A stretch of 64,000 nucleotides of DNA, from the NCBI RefSeq assembly GCF_021568795.1, contig NZ_JAKGUE010000001.1, forward strand, positions 186,001 through 250,000, in the 5' to 3' direction. Shown piece by piece: positions 9,015 through 57,455 of the stretch. A program made the translations under genes and the position numbers. The stretch is from Dethiosulfovibrio faecalis. Lineage in GTDB: Bacteria > Synergistota > Synergistia > Synergistales > Dethiosulfovibrionaceae. The stretch's first letter is position 1; the number at the start of each line of letters is the position of its first letter. Under the pieces are notes generated by a model. The model was not told the DNA's origin. It searched no databases and saw nothing but the letters and a program-made list of their open reading frames with translations.

Positions 9015-12000
9015 GTGATGAAAGGTACCGCAGCCTTTAAATATTTTATCGCGTCTTTTCTGTCCTCTTTGTTCCTCTCCCCCTTCGTCGCTGCCGCCTC
9101 AGACCTTCCCAGCGTATTCAAGCCCGTTCCGGAGGAATATTCCACCCCCGTCCCTCCAAACGTCCTTCTGCTCATCGATACGAGCGGCTCAATGCTGTTC
9201 GATCTTGAGGGGGATACCACTCACGGTGACGGAAGCAAGCCCTTTAGCGATCAATATTATTACGGAAGGGACACCGACCCCGGCAACAACGATCCCGACG
9301 ACGGTTCTCTATCGTATTATCCTCCCGTAACCTATCTGTCCGACGAAGAGGTGTCCGATCTTCGATATGATACTCTTCTTGGCCTCATGGGACGAAAGGG
9401 GAATCGCTACCTGCACCCCAACGACAGCAGGATGTACATATTGAAGAAGGTCCTCTGGTCCATCTTCACAGACCCCTCCATGGTGGAGGGCTTGAAGATA
9501 GGTTTATGTACCTATCATCAAAGAGAGAGATATGGCGTTCCGGGAAGCGGATATGTCTCCTATGAGTTCCCCTCTTACTGGGGGGGGTGGTACTGGGAAA
9601 GACAGAGGCTCTCCTGGCAACCCACAGGCGAAAGCAAGGCGCTTATGAGATTGGGGCTGGACGTAATAGGTCCTTTTTTCTATGCTCCGTCGAACTTTTA
9701 CGGCGGCGTGCCGGACGGTAAGCTGGGGACAAGCCACTGGTACGACCTTCTGGCCCTGATAGACGGAGTGGAGACCTCCGAAAACGACGAGTTGAGAGCC
9801 GTCGGTGGCACTCCCTTAGAGAGATCCATCCTTTCCAGAGGCAATAATCCCAAAAATTGCGCCTATGCCTTCATTCAGTCGGAGATAGAGTACCCCTGTC
9901 AGGACAACTGGTTGATAGTCCTCACCGACGGAGAGGACTCCGATCCCAGAGCCAAACCGGAGGACGCTGTCGAAAAACTCTACCGGGCCAACCTAGACGA
10001 TCCCGACTGGCCTAACCCGTATGGAAAAAAAGCTCGGCCGGTCAGGACCTTTGTGATAGGTTTAGTCGATTTTCAGTCTGATACACTCGACGCGATGGCT
10101 GACGAGGGACGGGCTTGGGAGGTGGACGAGAGCATAAAGAAGACCGCCTATTACGCTACAGATACGGACTCCCTCCTGGAGGCGTTTCGAACTATCTTCA
10201 GGTTGATACAGAATGGCAGATCGTCCTCGGTTCCTCCCGACGTTCAGACGAACTTGTCCGAGGAGGGCGATATCGTCTATGCGGCCTCTTTCCTCCCTAG
10301 AACCGACGGTGCATGGCCGGGCTATCTCTACAAGAAAAGACTGACGTCTCCCGACGGATATGAGACTATTTGGGATGGATCGGAAGGGCTGCCTCGGTGG
10401 GACAGGCGGAATATATATCATGCTCCTTGGTACGATTTTTCCGGTGAGTCCCTTTCCGGCAGCAATCTAAAGAGGTTTCCTACGGGAGGGACGGAGGCTT
10501 CCTCCGTGGCCTACCAAGCCGGCGTGAGCGATTCCGATTCGGCTAATTTCGTCCGTTGGGTTCGAGGTGGAAGTTGGAATCATAACTCCGACAGGGTCTC
10601 TCCTATGGTGGATCTCTACAGGGGGGATATCTTGCTGATGGAAGGTCCTCCCGGGACCAGGTCCGACCCCGATTTTAGCTCTTTCGTCTATGAAAACCGC
10701 TCCAGAGACGTGGTGCTCTTTTCTCAGGGGAACGGCGGGATTTTGCAGTTTTTTGACGACGAGACAGGCAGGGAGTTTCTGGGGATTATCCCTCCCAATC
10801 TTCTTTGCCGTTCCCGTCTTGCCGGATTAGTGGACAACCCGGTAGAACCCGAGATGGGAAGTTCCAGGTATCTTCTGGCCGGTCCCATAGTGGTGGAGGA
10901 CGTTAAGATAGAGACTCCCTACGGGGTTACCGGAGAGAGATACAGAACTATCTTGCTGGGGTCCCTCGGCTACGGCGGTTCCGGCCTTTACGCTTTGGAC
11001 GTCACCGATCCCGTCAAGCCCCGTTTCATATGGGCCAGAGATAGCTTGGTCTACTCGGACAACGGTTTTATCCCTGAAGATAACGGGCTGGTGTGGAGTT
11101 ACTCTCAGAAAGGATCCCACCTTACTTCCGGGGATAACGCAGTCCCATCCCTCAGGAGGGTGATAGGAAAGCCTTTTATCGGATGGATAGACGACGGCTG
11201 GGAGAGAAAATGGCTCGCCCTGTTCGGAGCCGGAGCGGGCAGCACTGTAAGATCCTCGGATGGAGCTATCTCCTTTCAACACGTCGACGATCAGGGGGGA
11301 AGGGCCATATACGCTTTGGACGTCTCCGACGGATCGGTGTTTAAAACCATCTCAGACGACAGAATGGGGCAGGTCATCGCCGATGTGGCCGTCAGCAAGG
11401 GGGATGGAAGGCCCGACTATCTCAGAATATCCCGTTCCTACGTCGGTGATACCGAAGGACAGCTGTGGCGCCTCAATTGGGAGGGGAACGATCCCTACAG
11501 CTGGAGTCTAGACATGATAGGGGACCTGGCGGATGGAGAGGATCGGCCTCCTCTGGTGCACGGGGTGGACCTCTCCTTGAAGAACGGACGGAGATGGATC
11601 TTTGCCGCTACGGGAGATCCTTACGATCTTGTCCCTAGAGGGTCCGATCGCCCTGGCTCGAATTGTCTGGTAGGCTTTAAGGAGCCGGACTCGGAATCCG
11701 GAAAGATAGCCAGGGAAGACCTCAAGGTTTTGGTCTTTAACGACGACCTTCTTGACGAGGACGATAGAGAGCCGGGATGGATTATACCCTTGGAGAGAGG
11801 GGAGTTCTCAACGACCCCGCCTTTGATCTACAGGGGAAAGTTTTTTGGAAGCACCTACATAGCTTCTCAGGGGAATCCCTGCGAGCCGGGGATCGCTAAG
11901 CTTTACATGTTGAAAGCTTTTGACGGAGCTGGGGCCTTTTCGGGAAAGTCCAGGAGTCTATCTTTGCCTGGCATTAAGATAACCGGAATGGAGGTCAAGA

Positions 12001-12188
12001 ACGGAAAGGTCGTGATGGGAGTCCTTAATCCCGGCGGTAAGGAAGAAGATGAATTTGATCTTCCCGAGGGGCTGGGTGCTAAAATGGATTCAGACGGAGC
12101 TGTCCTCTCCATAGAGGTTCCCGATGATGAAGAGGGGGGCTCGAATGGGGACGTTATGCGTTCCGGATACTGGAGGAGGTTATGGTGA
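9015..12188 (+). CDS. pilY1: PilY1-like pilus tip protein with VWA domain
   Basis: 1057-residue exported protein. A signal peptide (residues ~1-28, ending AAAS) precedes a von Willebrand A domain whose MIDAS motif DTSGSM starts near residue 56, with the supporting GGTPLERSI threonine and VLTDGEDSD aspartate. The C-terminal half is a PilY1-type beta-propeller with the signature GDTEGQLWRLN. Such proteins sit at the pilus tip and act in adhesion, surface sensing and assembly. GGAGG at 9004-9008 serves GTG 9015 or ATG 9018. The region around codon 189 contains a run of eight G bases (9580-9587). Follows the minor pilins and overlaps the next gene. Confidence 0.88.
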   Translation: MMKGTAAFKYFIASFLSSLFLSPFVAAASDLPSVFKPVPEEYSTPVPPNVLLLIDTSGSMLFDLEGDTTHGDGSKPFSDQYYYGRDTDPGNNDPDDGSLSYYPPVTYLSDEEVSDLRYDTLLGLMGRKGNRYLHPNDSRMYILKKVLWSIFTDPSMVEGLKIGLCTYHQRERYGVPGSGYVSYEFPSYWGGWYWERQRLSWQPTGESKALMRLGLDVIGPFFYAPSNFYGGVPDGKLGTSHWYDLLALIDGVETSENDELRAVGGTPLERSILSRGNNPKNCAYAFIQSEIEYPCQDNWLIVLTDGEDSDPRAKPEDAVEKLYRANLDDPDWPNPYGKKARPVRTFVIGLVDFQSDTLDAMADEGRAWEVDESIKKTAYYATDTDSLLEAFRTIFRLIQNGRSSSVPPDVQTNLSEEGDIVYAASFLPRTDGAWPGYLYKKRLTSPDGYETIWDGSEGLPRWDRRNIYHAPWYDFSGESLSGSNLKRFPTGGTEASSVAYQAGVSDSDSANFVRWVRGGSWNHNSDRVSPMVDLYRGDILLMEGPPGTRSDPDFSSFVYENRSRDVVLFSQGNGGILQFFDDETGREFLGIIPPNLLCRSRLAGLVDNPVEPEMGSSRYLLAGPIVVEDVKIETPYGVTGERYRTILLGSLGYGGSGLYALDVTDPVKPRFIWARDSLVYSDNGFIPEDNGLVWSYSQKGSHLTSGDNAVPSLRRVIGKPFIGWIDDGWERKWLALFGAGAGSTVRSSDGAISFQHVDDQGGRAIYALDVSDGSVFKTISDDRMGQVIADVAVSKGDGRPDYLRISRSYVGDTEGQLWRLNWEGNDPYSWSLDMIGDLADGEDRPPLVHGVDLSLKNGRRWIFAATGDPYDLVPRGSDRPGSNCLVGFKEPDSESGKIAREDLKVLVFNDDLLDEDDREPGWIIPLERGEFSTTPPLIYRGKFFGSTYIASQGNPCEPGIAKLYMLKAFDGAGAFSGKSRSLSLPGIKITGMEVKNGKVVMGVLNPGGKEEDEFDLPEGLGAKMDSDGAVLSIEVPDDEEGGSNGDVMRSGYWRRLW

Positions 12189-15188: not shown

Positions 15189-16901
15189 GTGAGAAATAAA
15201 ACTATCGCATTCTTCGTTGTTCTATTTGCCTTTGTCTTTGCGCCGGGACCTCTTTTTTCGGAGCCTCTGCCGCCATCGGTTCTTTCCGGGATAACTCCTC
15301 AACAGGTAGGGGCCGACAGGATAACCGTGACCGTCCAGGGAATGAATCTACCCCGTCCCGAGGTGGCAAATCAGGACGGAGGACGTATAGATCTGATATT
15401 CAAGGGGACCACTGTCCCCTCGTCTCGCTGGGAGAGGATCTACAATTTTCCCCTTCTCTCCAAGGTTGAGATGGATCACGTAGAGGGCGGTTTAAGGGTC
15501 AGGTTCATCACCGGAGAGAAGATAGTTCTTCACTCAGTAAAGGGAGATTCTCCCTGTAACAGGGTTTTTCTAGATTTCAGAACTGTCTCGTCTTTGAACA
15601 GGGAGGATAGTTCCAAAAAGCTGAAGGAGCCCCGTAGGATTCCCACCGACGGAAGCGATCCGTTTCAGACGAACAAGAGGATTTCCGTCGACTTCCGTTC
15701 CGTAGGTATACAGGACGTCTTCAGGATGTTGGCGGACATGATGAAGGTGAACATCGTTCTGGATCCCTCTGTGGCGGAGGTTCCTCCTCTCACCATGAGA
15801 TTCGACGAAGCCCCTCTTCGGGAGGTCTTCGGCTATCTCATGAGGCTTTACGGCCTCAGCTACGCCAAGGTGGGAAAAACCTTGGTGATAGGCTCTCCCG
15901 AGGGTATATCCAAGGTAATGGGAGAGGAGAAGACCAGAGTCTACGATGTGGCCTATTCTGACGTAAAAACTCTTCCGGACATGCTAGGAGGCCTCACAAC
16001 CATACCGAAGGAAAAGATCACCGTGGACGAGAGACTGGGAAGGCTTTTCGTCAAGGGGTCGGAGAATCAGCTCTCCGATTTCGAGAGGGTGCTTCAGACC
16101 GTGGACGATCCAGGCAAGCAGGTCATGCTTCGTGCTAGGATAATAGAGATAAAAGACGAGGCTTCCGACGAACTCGAGACGATGCTCAACGCGGTCTACA
16201 AGCATTGGTGGCTGAGTACCAGTTCCTCCGGAGCCGAGGGTGGCTATTCTTACGTGAAGGACCCCGATACCTACGATCCTCCTACCGGAGAGAACCGACC
16301 TGGAGGTATAGAGTTTCCCGGCATAGAGATACCCGATATAGGAACTGGAGGCATTCGCCTTCTCGATACGGGACTCAAGGCTCTGGTCACGGCCAACAAA
16401 GGCAAGGTGTTGGCCAATCCTTCGGTTATAACGGTCAGTGGTCGGAAGGCGTCTATAAAGTTGGTCGAAAACCTGAAGTATATCTCCGCCAGAGACGATG
16501 CCGGGAACCCAACCTACAGCGACGAGGAGGTAGGTCCAAAGCTGGAGTTTACACCCGTGGTCGGAAGGGACGGTATTATCTCGGTGGAGCTCTCCATCTC
16601 GACTGGAGAGGTCATAGCCTGGAAGGAAGGTAACCAGGGAGAAGAATTTCCCCAGACCAGCGAGAGAGAGGTGGTTACCTCCATAAGGGTGAGAGACGGG
16701 GAGCCCTTCGTGGTCGGAGGGTTGTTCAACGAGAGACATACGGAAAACACCACCAAGATCCCTATACTGGGGGATATCCCTCTGCTGGGAGAGTTCTTCA
16801 AGTCCAAGAGCAAGACGGACGACAGAACGGAGGTCGTCATGGTTGTGATTCCCTATATATTGAACGTCGCCGACGGCCCTATAGAACGATGGGACCTTTG
16901 A
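15189..16901 (+). CDS. pilQ: Type IV pilus outer-membrane secretin PilQ
   Basis: 570-residue secretin. Signal peptide (residues ~1-25), AMIN-like beta domain (~30-130), STN/N0 domain (~160-230, with DVFRMLADMMKVNIVLDPSV), an N1 domain (~240-310), then the secretin pore with ANKGKVLANPSVITVSGRKA and the closing LGDIPLLGEFFKSKSK motif. Short for PilQ because it has one AMIN domain and few N domains. Its presence implies an outer membrane. GTG start at 15189 after GGGAGG. It closes the pilus operon; no prepilin peptidase (PilD) gene is present in the window. Confidence 0.93.
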   Translation: MRNKTIAFFVVLFAFVFAPGPLFSEPLPPSVLSGITPQQVGADRITVTVQGMNLPRPEVANQDGGRIDLIFKGTTVPSSRWERIYNFPLLSKVEMDHVEGGLRVRFITGEKIVLHSVKGDSPCNRVFLDFRTVSSLNREDSSKKLKEPRRIPTDGSDPFQTNKRISVDFRSVGIQDVFRMLADMMKVNIVLDPSVAEVPPLTMRFDEAPLREVFGYLMRLYGLSYAKVGKTLVIGSPEGISKVMGEEKTRVYDVAYSDVKTLPDMLGGLTTIPKEKITVDERLGRLFVKGSENQLSDFERVLQTVDDPGKQVMLRARIIEIKDEASDELETMLNAVYKHWWLSTSSSGAEGGYSYVKDPDTYDPPTGENRPGGIEFPGIEIPDIGTGGIRLLDTGLKALVTANKGKVLANPSVITVSGRKASIKLVENLKYISARDDAGNPTYSDEEVGPKLEFTPVVGRDGIISVELSISTGEVIAWKEGNQGEEFPQTSEREVVTSIRVRDGEPFVVGGLFNERHTENTTKIPILGDIPLLGEFFKSKSKTDDRTEVVMVVIPYILNVADGPIERWDL

Positions 16902-16957: not shown

Positions 16958-16997
16958 TGTGCTATTCGAGACGCGACACGAACTAGGAGGTTCATAG

Positions 16998-17570
16998 ATG
17001 GCACAGGTAGTGGATACAAGCAAGTTTTACCCCGGCATCAAGATATTGTGGCAGGAAGGAATGTGGGAGGTCGTAGAGTTCCAGCACCATAAGATGGGAA
17101 GAGGCGGAGCGGTTGTAAAGACCAAGCTGAGAAACCTCGATACCGGATCGATCATAGAGAACGCTTTCCGCTCCGGAGAGAAATTCGATAGGATCGTCTT
17201 CGAGGAGAAGCCCGCTCAGTTTCTATACCAGGACGGAGATAGCTATGTCTTTATGGACATGGTAAGCTACGATCAGATCTATCTTTCCACCGAGGTGCTG
17301 GGCAAGGCCATCAAATACCTGACGGACAATCTCGAAGTTACTCTGGAGATGTACGGAGAGAGGATCATGGGAATAGAGCTGCCTAACAGCGTGACCCTGA
17401 AGATCATAGAGACGTCTCCTAACTTCAAGGGAGATACCGCCTCCGGCGGTGGAAAACCCGCGACTACCGAGACGGGGCTTACCGTGACGGTGCCGATGTT
17501 CGTGGAGGTCGGAGAGGATATAGTGGTAGATACCAGGACGGGGGCTTATCTGGAACGTGCTAAAAAGTAG
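16998..17570 (+). CDS. efp: Elongation factor P
   Basis: 190-residue, three-domain translation factor that rescues ribosomes stalled at polyproline. The N-terminal KOW-like domain, the central OB domain and the C-terminal OB domain (FVEVGEDIVVDTRTGAY) are all present. The tip loop reads FQHHKMGRGGAVVKTKLRN, where most EF-Ps have FQHVKPGKG...; the modified lysine is replaced by Arg35 (codon AGA at 17100) and the preceding Pro by Met33. GGAGG lies 5-9 nt before the ATG. Founder of an operon-like row with CD1247-type, Asp23 and nusB genes. Identity is certain; the modification state is unknown. Confidence 0.97.
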   Translation: MAQVVDTSKFYPGIKILWQEGMWEVVEFQHHKMGRGGAVVKTKLRNLDTGSIIENAFRSGEKFDRIVFEEKPAQFLYQDGDSYVFMDMVSYDQIYLSTEVLGKAIKYLTDNLEVTLEMYGERIMGIELPNSVTLKIIETSPNFKGDTASGGGKPATTETGLTVTVPMFVEVGEDIVVDTRTGAYLERAKK

Positions 17571-17600: not shown

Positions 17601-18041
17601 ATGAGTGCGAGGGAAAAGATAGCCTATATCAAGGGATTGCTCGATGCGGGAACGCCGAGGGACGATTTTGAAATGGCCCTGTACGGTGCTATCGTGGAGG
17701 CCCTCGACGCCGTAGTGGACGACATGGATCGGCAAGATGAATCCTTGGTGGCCTTGACGGAAGAACTGATGGATCTCTCCGATTACTGTGATGGTCTAGG
17801 CGAGGATCTGGACGCCATCGAGGAGGGATGGTTGGGCGATCGGGTATTGGGCCAGGAGGACATCCTCACGGCGGAGGAAGACGAACCGGAAGGGGTCGAC
17901 CTCTATCGGCCGATACTTTGTCCCTACTGTTCCACCATGTTCTACTACAGACCGGACCTATGCGATGAAAACGATACAGTCCAATGTCCCAACTGCAGAA
18001 GGACCTTTGCGCCTTCCGAGGTCGAGCTCGAGGAGGAATGA
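17601..18041 (+). CDS. CD1247-type N-terminal domain protein with zinc ribbon
   Basis: 146 residues. The acidic helical N-terminus (residues ~1-65: REKIAYIKGLLDAG, then EALDAVVDDMDR) matches the CD1247 N-terminal domain found in Clostridia. The C-terminus has a zinc-ribbon, CPYC near residue 104 and CPNC near 130. Function unknown in the family. Clostridial genomes often place it between efp and asp23, as here. GGAGG at 17590-17594. Nothing suggests enzymatic activity. Confidence 0.75.
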   Translation: MSAREKIAYIKGLLDAGTPRDDFEMALYGAIVEALDAVVDDMDRQDESLVALTEELMDLSDYCDGLGEDLDAIEEGWLGDRVLGQEDILTAEEDEPEGVDLYRPILCPYCSTMFYYRPDLCDENDTVQCPNCRRTFAPSEVELEEE

Positions 18042-18048
18042 TTGACCT

Positions 18049-18600
18049 ATGGATGATATGAATCACACTGTGGTCGAGACGGAAAAGACGGAGATCGTCG
18101 ACGTAGAGAGCGCCGTTGCCGAGGCGGAAGGCGAACTTCCGGGAGATGTGGCCGGGAAGGTCCATATATCCGAGGATGTCATAACGGAGCTTGCCAGACA
18201 GGCTCTACAGAAGGTCACCGGAATTCAACCGGCAAGCTCCGGAATTGCTTCCAAGCTTGGGTTGGGGCGAAAGGTGACCGAGGGAGTAAAGGTCTACGTC
18301 GACGAGGGAGAGAATCCGTCCATCTCGGTCGACGCTTTTCTCATGGTGAAATACGGTCTTCGAATTCCCGACTTAGCCTGGGACGTCCAGGAGACAGTAA
18401 AGAACGAGCTGGAGGGGATGACCGGTTACGCCGTCAATTATGTGAACATATACGTTCAAGGAGTGTACTTCGACGAACCGAAAGTCGACGAGTCCTCCGG
18501 GGAAGTCGTCGAGCCAGCGGAGTCTACGGAAGAAGAACCCCGAGATGATAACGAGGCGATAGACGAGCGTTCCGAGACGCAATCAAAGGACCAGGAATAG
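18049..18600 (+). CDS. Asp23/Gls24 family envelope stress protein
   Basis: 183 residues. The central Asp23 domain (about 40-150) shows ISEDVITELARQALQKVTGI and a VYVDEG...ISVDAFLMVKYG beta segment and the VNIYVQGVYFDE end typical of the family. N- and C-terminal tails are acidic and low complexity; the C-terminal ~40 residues are Glu/Asp-rich. Asp23 proteins are membrane-associated through partner anchors in Firmicutes and linked to cell-envelope homeostasis. A terminator follows immediately. The next gene encodes a possible membrane partner. Confidence 0.85.
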   Translation: MDDMNHTVVETEKTEIVDVESAVAEAEGELPGDVAGKVHISEDVITELARQALQKVTGIQPASSGIASKLGLGRKVTEGVKVYVDEGENPSISVDAFLMVKYGLRIPDLAWDVQETVKNELEGMTGYAVNYVNIYVQGVYFDEPKVDESSGEVVEPAESTEEEPRDDNEAIDERSETQSKDQE

Positions 18601-18606
18601 CTTGAG

Positions 18607-18636
18607 GGTCGGCTCGAGTTCGAGTCGGCCTTTTTT
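18607..18636 (+). terminator. Rho-independent terminator after asp23-like gene
   Basis: Ten-base stem GGTCGGCTCG / CGAGTCGGCC (two G-U pairs), AGTT loop, then six T residues at 18631-18636. Lies 7 nt after the stop. The downstream gene begins 15 nt later with no clear promoter, so termination is probably partial. Confidence 0.8.
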
Positions 18637-18651
18637 GATTAGGAGGCCACC

Positions 18652-19134
18652 GTGTACGTAAAGTGGATGGACAACGGTCGAGGTAGAATCTGGCTTTCTA
18701 CGTTAGGGTTGAAGGCCTTCGTGGAGAGCCATCTTCCCGAGGGCGTCAGCTGTAGGGATATCGAGTTTTTAGGTGAGAAAAATCAGATCTTTCTCTCTCT
18801 GGTCTTGAGCGATACCACGTTGTATCTTGATAAGCTGTCGACGTCGGAGGAGCTGACGGAACGTCTCGAGGCTCTCGGGCTCGATGCAGTGGTCTCGTGG
18901 AAGCACGTCTCCGACGTGGAGGGCGAGGACGGTCCGGGGTTGACGGAGCGGCCTTACTTTTGGGGCATAATCGGCGCCGTCGTTGCGGCCCTTTTGAAGC
19001 TTGGACTTAAGGGGACCCTGGAATGTCTTCTGGCAGGTGCCGCTTTTTACGGATTTGCTTTTTTCTTTCGTTCCGATAAGGGGCAGCATTGGACCTCTCG
19101 GATCGCCAGGTTTTTCAAGGAGATGATGGATTGA
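18652..19134 (+). CDS. Membrane protein of unknown function, DUF2273-like C-terminus
   Basis: 160 residues, not firmly recognised. The N-terminal ~95 residues are soluble and mixed alpha/beta with no known motif. The C-terminus has two hydrophobic helices (GIIGAVVAALLKLGLKG and LECLLAGAAFYGFAFFF) followed by a basic amphipathic tail (SRIARFFKEMM). This two-helix-plus-tail layout resembles DUF2273 proteins, which often lie between asp23 and nusB in Clostridia and serve as membrane partners. GTG start after AGGAGG. Overlaps nusB by TTGA. The link to Asp23 is inference from position and topology. Confidence 0.65.
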   Translation: MYVKWMDNGRGRIWLSTLGLKAFVESHLPEGVSCRDIEFLGEKNQIFLSLVLSDTTLYLDKLSTSEELTERLEALGLDAVVSWKHVSDVEGEDGPGLTERPYFWGIIGAVVAALLKLGLKGTLECLLAGAAFYGFAFFFRSDKGQHWTSRIARFFKEMMD

Positions 19135-19562
19135 AGGTCGGACGAGGTCATTATAAAAAACATCGGGCCCGGGAAGTGGCTCTTCAGCTTCTCTATTCCA
19201 TGGACGTGACTAAAAAACACGATGCCGAGAAAGCGTTGAACGATTTTTCCTTCGAGGATGAGATCGACATCGAGGAGGCCGTCAGAGCCCTCTTATTGGG
19301 GGTTATGGACCATCTGGAAGAGATAGACAATCTCATAAACGTCAACGTCGTGGGGTGGAGGGGAGACCGTATGGTCGCAGTGGATCATGCGGCCATACGG
19401 TTGGCCGTTTACGAAGGCCTGATAGCCCGTGTTGTCCCCGTCCCAGTGGCCATATCCGAGGCAGTGGAGCTGGTCAAGGTCTTCGGTACCGACGAATCCG
19501 GTCGGTTCGTGAACGGAGCTCTGGCCAGAATATTCCGCGCCGTTCCGGAAGACGATGAGTGA
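19131..19562 (+). CDS. nusB: Transcription antitermination factor NusB
   Basis: 143-residue all-helical RNA-binding factor that works with S10 at boxA in rRNA antitermination. RAREVALQLLYSMDV at the start, then VDHAAIRLAVYEGL and the C-terminal IAISEAVELVKVFGTDESGRFVNGAL signature region (quoted in part). The TTG at 19131 is chosen because AAGGAG at 19117-19122 is 8 nt away and it overlaps the upstream stop; a longer open frame exists. Overlaps xseA by 8 nt. Confidence 0.93.
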   Translation: MKVGRGHYKKHRAREVALQLLYSMDVTKKHDAEKALNDFSFEDEIDIEEAVRALLLGVMDHLEEIDNLINVNVVGWRGDRMVAVDHAAIRLAVYEGLIARVVPVPVAISEAVELVKVFGTDESGRFVNGALARIFRAVPEDDE

Positions 19563-20781
19563 GGTCGTCCCCAACAGGGGGATCCTCTCGGTAGACGAGC
19601 TGTCCTTTAGGATAAAAGACGCTATAGAGAGTTACCCGGGAATGGGGAAAATAGCGGTCCAGGGCGAGATCGTAGACCTGAAACGACATAGCAGCGGTCA
19701 TTGCTACTTCACCCTATCTGGGCAGGAGAGCCGCATAGCCGGGGTTCTCTTCAGGTCAGATGCCGCCGGGGTCGTCAAATGGCCTCGTCCCGGCGACGAG
19801 GTCGTCGTCGGTGGACGGGTGTCCTCCTATCCTCAGAGAGGGATATACCAGTTGTACGCCAGGAGGCTGTTCCCCTTGGGAAAGGGGGCCATCTCGAGGG
19901 CGAAGGAAGAGCTCAGGGCGAAGCTCTCCAAGGAGGGGATTTTCGCTCCGGAGAGGAAAAGGCCTATCCCTCCCTACCCGGAAAGGATACTGTGTATAAC
20001 CTCCGCCACCGGTGCGGCTTTCAGAGACGTGGTAAAGGTTATGGGGACCAGAAATCCGTCGGTGGAGTTGGTCCTCATCCCTGCTACCGTGCAGGGAATC
20101 GACGGTCCGGACGAGATAGTCGAGGCCTTTGCGAAGGTGCCATCCCTGTTGCCTGCCGATGCGGTGTTGCTCGTCAGAGGCGGAGGAAGCAGAGGAGATC
20201 TCAATCCTTTCGACGACGAGGCGGTTGTGAGGTCCATCTCCTCCTGCCCCGTTTCGGTCGTGGTGGGGGTGGGTCATCAGGTCGACTTCACCCTGTCCGA
20301 TATGGCGGCGGACAGGCGTTGTGCTACTCCCTCGGAGGCGGCAGAGGTGGTCGTCCCCGACAGGACCTACCTCTACAGCCTTCTTTCCAACGGGAAAAAC
20401 CGCCTTAAAAAGGCGATGGAGAGGGAGATCGATCGACTCGCCACCCGCGTCGTCGACAGGGAGATCCTCCTGACTCGACTCGTGGTGGGAGATATCGACC
20501 GTCTTAGAAAGGACGTCGACGGTCTGTCTCGTAGAGCCGTATCTGCGACTGAAAAGACGGTCGTTTCCGAGATCGGGAGGCTTGCAGGGCTATCGGCGGC
20601 TTTGGACGGTGCCTCCCCCCTGAGGATTCTGGGAAAAGGTTACGTTTCCTGTCGAGACGAAGCTGGTACTCCCGTCTGTTCTGTGAGGTCTATGACTCCC
20701 GGTAAAAAAATATCCCTCGATTTTCTGGACGGAAGAGCCGACTGTCGAGTGGAGTCGTCGTGCGTTGTGAAAAGGAGCTGA
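19555..20781 (+). CDS. xseA: Exodeoxyribonuclease VII large subunit
   Basis: 408 residues. N-terminal OB-fold DNA-binding domain (about 10-105) with GHCYFTLSGQESRI, then the catalytic region with ITSATGAAFRDV, the RGGGSRGDLNPFDDE motif and GVGHQVDFTLSD, then a coiled-coil C-terminus and the GKGYVSCRDE end. It degrades single-stranded DNA together with the small subunit XseB. In many genomes xseB follows directly; here the next gene, 5 nt on, is mtnA, and no xseB is visible in the window. Confidence 0.95.
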   Translation: MSEVVPNRGILSVDELSFRIKDAIESYPGMGKIAVQGEIVDLKRHSSGHCYFTLSGQESRIAGVLFRSDAAGVVKWPRPGDEVVVGGRVSSYPQRGIYQLYARRLFPLGKGAISRAKEELRAKLSKEGIFAPERKRPIPPYPERILCITSATGAAFRDVVKVMGTRNPSVELVLIPATVQGIDGPDEIVEAFAKVPSLLPADAVLLVRGGGSRGDLNPFDDEAVVRSISSCPVSVVVGVGHQVDFTLSDMAADRRCATPSEAAEVVVPDRTYLYSLLSNGKNRLKKAMEREIDRLATRVVDREILLTRLVVGDIDRLRKDVDGLSRRAVSATEKTVVSEIGRLAGLSAALDGASPLRILGKGYVSCRDEAGTPVCSVRSMTPGKKISLDFLDGRADCRVESSCVVKRS

Positions 20782-55718: not shown

Positions 55719-57455
55719 GTGATACATTATCTTTCCTCCTCGACTGCTTTTGTCCTATCCTCCCTGGTGCTCGTGTCGTTCATGTTGCAGAGACTCTACC
55801 GGAGGACTTTATCGAAAGAACGTTATTTTTATATGAGAGATCTGACTCTGGTGGGAGTCTGGATGCTGTTTGCCCTTTGGACCGGAGACAGCGAAATTCG
55901 TGTCGTCGTAGGTATGGCGTTGTTGGGGTCTATAGTCGGCATGGTGCAGCACACTTCTCCGAACAAGAAACTCTCTTGGCTTTTCGGAGTGGTCGGCTTT
56001 TTTTTCGCCCTGGTAGGTCCTAGAATCTCATTCGTAGGCATGCCGGGAGGGCAATATCTTTATCTTTCCTCTTATTCATCGATCCTGATGACAGCCCTTT
56101 GGGTGACGGTTTTTCCTCTTTTGTTTCAGAGATTGGACGATATTCCTGGGTTGGCCGGACATCTTCTCGGGGTAAGTTTTTCCTTAACCTTGCTGATATC
56201 CTCGATTTCGGGGCAACAGGTAGGAGACGCTTTTCTCATGTCTATTGCGGGGGTCTCTTTCGTCGCGGTCTTCTGGAGCAGACTGGGCCATAACTATCGC
56301 CAGCTTGGAAAGCCCCTTTCCTCGTTTTGGGGTATGTTGGTGGCGGGGGCCTCTCTGGTCGGGGTGACCAAGGGTGTGACCTTCACCACTTTGATGGTGA
56401 TACCGATGGGGCTCTACGCTCTTCCGATGATGGAGCTATCCCTGTATTTGGTCAGCCATGCTGTCCCTCTGGGTAAATGGGGCAACGTGTCCATCTATCA
56501 CAGGATGATGGACAGAGGGGTGGATCATCCTGGTGCGGTCAAGTTCGTCACGTTCCTCTGTCTTTTGATCGGTACGGTAGTATCCTTCGTGCAGATAGGC
56601 ATAAACGATACCACCAGGCCGGCCTTTTTATCCCTTTTGGCTGTGTCTATAGCAGTAGTGGTCTCCTGCCTCAAAGGTTCGCAAAGCAGGGCTAGAACCG
56701 GTCTTTGGGGAGTCCGTATCGATGGCATGTCGATGAACTACGCTCTTTCCAAAGTAAGGGGAAGGTTTTTGTCCGGGGCTCCGTCTGCCATGATAGTGAC
56801 GGCTAACGCCCTGTCTTTTTATAGGGCTAAAAAAGACCCTCTGTACAGGGAAATTGCGGATTCAGCCTGGCTTACCCTGCCTGACGGTGCCGGATTGGTC
56901 TGGGCTCTTAAGTTCTTGGGCGTTCCTGTGGTCGAGCGGGTGGCCGGCATCGATTTTATGCATGGATTATGCCGTCTTGCCGCAGTGGAGAGATGGCCTA
57001 TCTATCTGCTGGGAAGTAAGCCCGATGTCGTATCCTCTGCCGCCGTCGAACTGGAGCGACTTTATCCCGGCTTAAAAGTCGTAGGCTATCGTGACGGTTA
57101 TTTCGACGATTTGGAGGATCAAGATATCCTGCAGGGCATTCGGAGTTCGGGGGCTAAGCTCCTCTTTACTGCCTTGGGTGTTCCTAAACAGGAGGCCTGG
57201 TTGAGCCGTTATCTTCCCGAGATGGACGGTGTCGTCGGGGTCGGTGTCGGAGGAAGTTTCGACGTGATATCCGGAAGGCTTAGAAGGGCTCCTCTTTTGT
57301 GGCAAAAATGTGGTCTGGAATGGCTGTATAGACTTATTCAGGAACCTTGGCGTTTGCGCCAGGATGTCGATTTGGTGTTGTTCGTATTCTCCGTTCTATT
57401 GGAGAAGATAGGGTTCTCCGGCTGGAGGGGTAAAGATGAAAACCATCGTAGCTGA
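55719..57455 (+). CDS. WecG/TagA/CpsF glycosyltransferase fused to decayed WecA/TagO-like membrane domain
   Basis: 578 residues. The C-terminal ~240 (from ~335) are a TagA-type transferase: TANALSFYRA, LPDGAGLVWA with the catalytic Asp near 389, RVAGIDFMHGL, YLLGSKPDV, ALGVPKQEAWL, GVGGSFDVISG and GLEWLYRLIQEPWR. The N-terminal ~310 are about ten membrane helices whose order mirrors WecA/TagO, and VGVTKGVTF...YHRMMDRGVDH corresponds to the end of that family. However, the catalytic Asp pairs, the MGDTGS loop and the HLHHR motif are lost (QH, no GDTGS, SIYHR). The result looks like a tethering pseudo-domain. GTG start; overlaps the CBS gene by 20 nt. Confidence 0.82.
   Translation: MIHYLSSSTAFVLSSLVLVSFMLQRLYRRTLSKERYFYMRDLTLVGVWMLFALWTGDSEIRVVVGMALLGSIVGMVQHTSPNKKLSWLFGVVGFFFALVGPRISFVGMPGGQYLYLSSYSSILMTALWVTVFPLLFQRLDDIPGLAGHLLGVSFSLTLLISSISGQQVGDAFLMSIAGVSFVAVFWSRLGHNYRQLGKPLSSFWGMLVAGASLVGVTKGVTFTTLMVIPMGLYALPMMELSLYLVSHAVPLGKWGNVSIYHRMMDRGVDHPGAVKFVTFLCLLIGTVVSFVQIGINDTTRPAFLSLLAVSIAVVVSCLKGSQSRARTGLWGVRIDGMSMNYALSKVRGRFLSGAPSAMIVTANALSFYRAKKDPLYREIADSAWLTLPDGAGLVWALKFLGVPVVERVAGIDFMHGLCRLAAVERWPIYLLGSKPDVVSSAAVELERLYPGLKVVGYRDGYFDDLEDQDILQGIRSSGAKLLFTALGVPKQEAWLSRYLPEMDGVVGVGVGGSFDVISGRLRRAPLLWQKCGLEWLYRLIQEPWRLRQDVDLVLFVFSVLLEKIGFSGWRGKDENHRS

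Follow-up and report, generated by a model that had tools for sequence, protein, structure and literature searches.

In most bacteria, the tip of elongation factor P (EF-P) is a lysine that is often chemically modified, and the EpmA, EpmB and YmfI pathways act on this lysine. Where the tip is an arginine instead, rhamnosylation by EarP is often assumed. Does an arginine tip imply rhamnosylation? The 64,000-nucleotide stretch of Dethiosulfovibrio faecalis DNA analysed here (the window) encodes an arginine-tipped EF-P, for which a preliminary description left three options: an unmodified EF-P, an EarP user in a new phylum or a new modification. We argue that it is probably an ordinary, single housekeeping EF-P of the Thermus type, with an arginine tip that works without rhamnosylation. 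The observations behind this reading are the sequence itself, the order-wide arginine, the single gene copy, the lack of EarP and RmlC and a near-identical loop in Thermus.

The product of the efp gene (Table 1) begins MAQVVDTSKFYPGIKILWQEGMWEVVEFQHHKMGRGGAVVKTKLRN and has the KOW-like N domain and two OB domains of an EF-P. All three Pfam domains (PF08207, PF01132 and PF09285, the KOW-like, OB and C-terminal EF-P domains) score above cut-off, and the NCBIfam efp model TIGR00038 gives 233.2 bits against a curated cut-off of 185.8. In a Foldseek search of the PDB the top matches are EF-Ps, with Thermus thermophilus 1UEB ranking second. The AlphaFold model has a mean pLDDT of 88, and of 77 for residues 31-40. 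A single PF01132 match in the 99.7%-complete genome makes this the sole EF-P gene found.

Table 1. Features in and around the efp locus of the window.
Feature	Position	Strand	Basis
1057-aa ORF upstream of pilus genes	9015-12188		
Secretin (PilQ-like), upstream neighbour, no relation to EF-P modification	15189..16901	+	PF00263, 131 bits
AGGAGG ribosome-binding site, 7 bases 5' of efp ATG	16985..16990	+	direct sequence reading
efp, elongation factor P, complete, 190 aa	16998..17570	+	ORF and translation; Pfam and NCBIfam matches
Seven-residue tip loop K32-M33-G34-R35-G36-G37-A38	17091..17111	+	sequence; flanking predicted strands
Arg35 codon AGA	17100..17102	+	alignments: equals E. coli Lys34, T. 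thermophilus Arg32
Zinc-ribbon-like protein	17601-18041	+	Pfam
Asp23	18049-18600	+	Pfam
ORF without assigned identity	18652-19134	+	
NusB	19089-19562	+	Pfam
XseA	19555-20781	+	Pfam
WecG/TagA-family glycosyltransferase, 38 kb from efp, outside the conserved block	55719-57455		

Positions 17091-17105 read AAG ATG GGA AGA GGC, which encodes K32 to G36 within the wider loop HHKMGRGGA. The predicted strands 21-31 and 39-46 of the AlphaFold model bracket loop 32-38, and hence R35 is the tip residue. A lysine-type EF-P has Lys at the tip and Pro at position -2; here we find Arg35 and Met33 instead. The arginine at the modification site, as first described, is therefore real: it lies at the tip of the loop in a complete ORF. 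The loop is not, however, non-standard for an Arg type, as the same description had it. In a survey of EF-Ps the Arg type accounts for 14.75%, and only 2.33% of Arg-type EF-Ps carry Pro at -2 (PMC6544042). Thus Met33 is the expected companion of the arginine and not a second oddity.

An arginine tip also occurs in EfpL (YeiP) of Escherichia coli, where it was reported to be unmodified by mass spectrometry (PMC11611912). The window protein could thus be an EfpL-type paralogue and not the main EF-P. The scores refute this identity: 114.4 bits for the yeiP model against a cut-off of 264, and 123.4 against 216, whereas the efp model passes its own cut-off (233 against 186). EfpL exists beside an EF-P and has an extended loop, while the window protein has a loop of ordinary length and is the only EF-P in its genome. 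We give this alternative practically no chance.

How far does the arginine reach? An EF-P match is present in 172 of 188 Synergistota genomes, and all 167 Synergistales genomes with a match have an Arg tip. These calls come from a DNA pattern of the loop (94 genomes), from individual reading (66) and from other loci (seven); the pattern required AAG as the Lys codon, and genomes missed for this reason were read singly. Among 102 distinct Synergistales proteins all six Arg codons (CGC, AGA, CGG, CGT, AGG and CGA) are used at the tip, and residues 34-38 are invariably GRGGA. At residues 32-33, 97 of the 102 proteins read KM; the other five, from the genus to which Pyramidobacter belongs, read MK. 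With 167 of 167 genomes and six codons, both chance and a sequencing error at 17100 are ruled out.

The preliminary description also asked whether the M-G-R loop is phylum-wide, and it is not. The Lys loop HVKPGKGQA occurs in five genomes, which belong to two deep Synergistota families outside Synergistales. Hence the arginine is a trait of the order, not of the phylum. The Lys-type EF-P of these five genomes shares only about 37% identity with that of Synergistales, by either replacement through transfer or deep divergence.

Three genomes (G113, which is a single-contig congener, G062 and G028) gave no EF-P match despite an estimated completeness of 93-100%. The gene xseA, 2 kb downstream of efp in the window, was not found in these genomes either. 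In all three, a missing or diverged stretch is therefore more probable than the loss of efp alone. In another genome (G082) efp falls into two overlapping frames, likely by a frameshift or an assembly error, with an intact loop. Among the papers that we searched, none on EF-P names Synergistetes.

If the arginine were rhamnosylated in the usual way, EarP should be found. A search of the genome for EarP, the check proposed at the outset, came back empty with both Pfam and NCBIfam: there is no EarP (PF10093) in the D. faecalis genome and none (TIGR03837) in 188 Synergistota genomes, where the best match reaches 12.4 bits. Matches of 10-12 bits to the EarP model in 15 Synergistota genomes are noise, as true EarPs score 256-496 bits. 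Our positive controls were drawn from EF-P genes on plasmid-collection records, where earP and efp occur as pairs (Shewanella baltica pSbal01, Ilyobacter polytropus pILYOP01 and, without annotation, Fusobacterium vincentii). TIGR03837 gave 496, 256 and 361 bits on these EarPs, respectively, and when run together with them found no match in D. faecalis or five Synergistota relatives. The F. vincentii record (NZ_CP084075), labelled a plasmid, is chromosome-sized at 2.1 Mb. EarP was likewise not found in 198 genomes of the phylum of a Desulfonauticus record, which could not serve as a control, nor in the control genomes of Thermus composti and Deinobacterium chartae, both of which have an EF-P.

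Rhamnosylation also depends on a supply of rhamnose. RmlC is required in the usual route to dTDP-L-rhamnose. It is absent (PF00908) from the 99.7%-complete genome of D. faecalis and present in 69 of the 188 Synergistota genomes (missing from 119), or in 46 of 116 good ones. Hence modification with rhamnose, by the usual route and known enzymes, cannot be the rule throughout the order. In D. faecalis itself, with neither EarP nor RmlC, rhamnosylation of EF-P is very unlikely, although a non-canonical epimerase is possible.

Alternatively, a highly divergent EarP that uses dTDP-L-rhamnose could modify this EF-P, which would still make it an EarP user in a new phylum. Like the EarP-type EF-Ps of Shewanella, Pseudomonas, Neisseria, Fusobacterium and Ilyobacter, the window EF-P (KMGRGGA) has an Arg tip without Pro at -2 (PMC6544042), and the data do not reject a tree that joins Synergistales with the EarP type (AU p 0.175). 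However, EarP matches in the 188 genomes stay at noise level, with positive controls that extend to Fusobacteriota, and RmlC is lacking in D. faecalis and most of its relatives. No earP adjoins efp in the nine loci that we compared, in agreement with what was first described for the window. The landmarks of the protein differ as well: three EarP-type EF-Ps that we read, all neighbouring earP, have SGRN[AS]A and RGDT[ST]GKV, while the window EF-P has KMGRGGA and KGDTASGG. We regard a divergent EarP as very improbable, and the claim of an EarP user in a new phylum as contradicted by the 188 genomes, the working control and the missing RmlC.

With the known Arg-modifying enzyme missing, the EF-P is most likely of the plain-arginine kind, as known from Thermus. 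Yet Arg35 could carry an undescribed modification, such as methylation, another sugar or another group, added by an enzyme whose gene lies at a distance from efp. Since over half of bacteria have none of the known EF-P modification enzymes (PMC6544042), further ones may exist. The invariance of residues 34-38 in 102 proteins fits recognition by an enzyme, but contacts with the ribosome predict the same.

The neighbourhood of efp offers no conserved candidate for such an enzyme. The order efp, zinc-ribbon-like protein, Asp23, nusB, xseA is kept in nine other Synergistales loci, and neither the block from 17601 to 20781 nor these nine loci contain a glycosyltransferase or another obvious modifying enzyme. 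The secretin gene pilQ occurs in all nine neighbourhoods; in six of them it immediately precedes efp. Further upstream in the window, the 1057-aa ORF contains seven PP sites and has no Pfam match at 1e-10; weakly similar ORFs (26-30%) lie upstream of efp in three relatives. The similar Thermus type, cited as working without modification (PMC2821294), speaks against an undescribed modification too, and we consider such a modification unlikely. The broader proposal, in which the EF-P of Synergistales, perhaps together with the Thermus and Thermotoga types, would bear an undiscovered Arg modification that is independent of EarP and rhamnose and due to an enzyme with a distant gene, also seems unlikely to us.

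Can an EF-P work with a plain arginine? EfpL of E. coli functions with an Arg tip that is unmodified by mass spectrometry (PMC11611912), and thus an unmodified Arg tip can work. In contrast, EF-Ps of the EarP kind function poorly when rhamnose is missing (PMC6544042; PMC4739656); where tested, they are then nearly inactive and, in E. coli, can even be inhibitory (PMC6544042). This counts against a bare arginine, although the Thermus-type loop differs. Neisseria, for its part, stays viable with an unmodified Arg32 (PMC4739656).

On the plain-arginine reading, when a ribosome stalls at consecutive prolines, EF-P would bind between its P and E sites, and the unmodified arginine would take over the contacts made in other EF-Ps by a modified lysine. 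The 41 window ORFs taken as genes (17,435 aa) contain 29 PP sites and zero PPP, and hence there is work for an EF-P. Both the bare state of Arg35 in the native protein and its contacts with the ribosome are inferences; sequence alone cannot show the former.

To place the protein among other EF-P types, we computed a tree without the loop columns. In it, the EF-Ps of Synergistales group together (100/100), next to those of Thermotogota with moderate support (89/82), and the EarP-type EF-Ps form a clade of their own (100/98). One-clade tests that join Synergistales with Thermus, with Thermotogota and Thermus, with the Lys-type Synergistota or with the EarP type all give p > 0.05, and none is rejected.

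The Thermotogota EF-P also has an Arg tip without Pro, in the loop KHF[TMRK][GA]RGSG, whose flanking residues differ from those of Synergistales. Each of 61 Thermotogota genomes searched has one EF-P, none of 30 Thermotogota EF-Ps read has a Lys tip, and four genomes tested have no EarP above cut-off. Three Thermotogota EF-Ps (KHHMAMGRG) have Met at the tip and are nested among Arg-tipped ones.

Related loops occur elsewhere: HTHKGRGGA in a WOR-3 group and HHKQGRGDA in a Zipacnadia genome. A Chthonomonas calidirosea MAG has HHKPGKGGAV, which keeps Lys and Pro, shares His-His before and Val after with the Arg types and looks intermediate. Gln-type loops have no basic residue at the aligned tip; we saw them in relatives of Thermodesulfovibrio (HVKMQQRAP) and in WOR-3 (RTAQRRA), at nine loci from Nitrospirota and uncultured lineages and two from WOR-3.

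An order whose EF-P has an Arg tip while its genomes lack EarP and, for the most part, RmlC clearly separates this tip from rhamnosylation. It makes testable whether an unmodified arginine replaces the modified lysine in the only EF-P of a cell. The contrast within the phylum, between the Arg of Synergistales and the Lys of two deep families, could serve to test the role of the residues that flank the tip. A new Arg modification, possible as far as the sequences go, would be the most interesting remaining point.

Arginine at the peptidyl-transferase centre has long been known from the EF-P of Thermus thermophilus. This protein (1UEB) aligns to the window EF-P over its full length (2.5e-47), with 43% identity in the structure alignment. 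Its loop (1UEB, 4V6A) is HQKLGRGGA, compared to HHKMGRGGA in the window. The two loops are equal in length, have Arg at the tip followed by GG and lack Pro at -2; they differ at -2 (Leu in Thermus, Met in the window) and at -4 (Gln and His, respectively). The window EF-P thus shares the loop K-[LM]-G-R-G-G-A, the single copy and the lack of EarP, which was not found in our control Thermus genome either. A clade of Synergistales and Thermus EF-Ps is not rejected (AU p 0.493), in a tree with poorly separated deep branches.

An unmodified Arg EF-P is therefore the best supported of the three original options, but it is not new. Arg32 of T. thermophilus, which contacts C75 and 23S phosphates, is cited as an example of an EF-P adapted to the lack of modification (Bailly and de Crecy-Lagard, PMC2821294), and Thermus and Deinococcus are listed among the Arg-type EF-Ps (Yanagisawa et al., PMC4739656). 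Most likely, then, the Arg-tipped EF-P without EarP that is already known from Thermus here extends to Synergistales.
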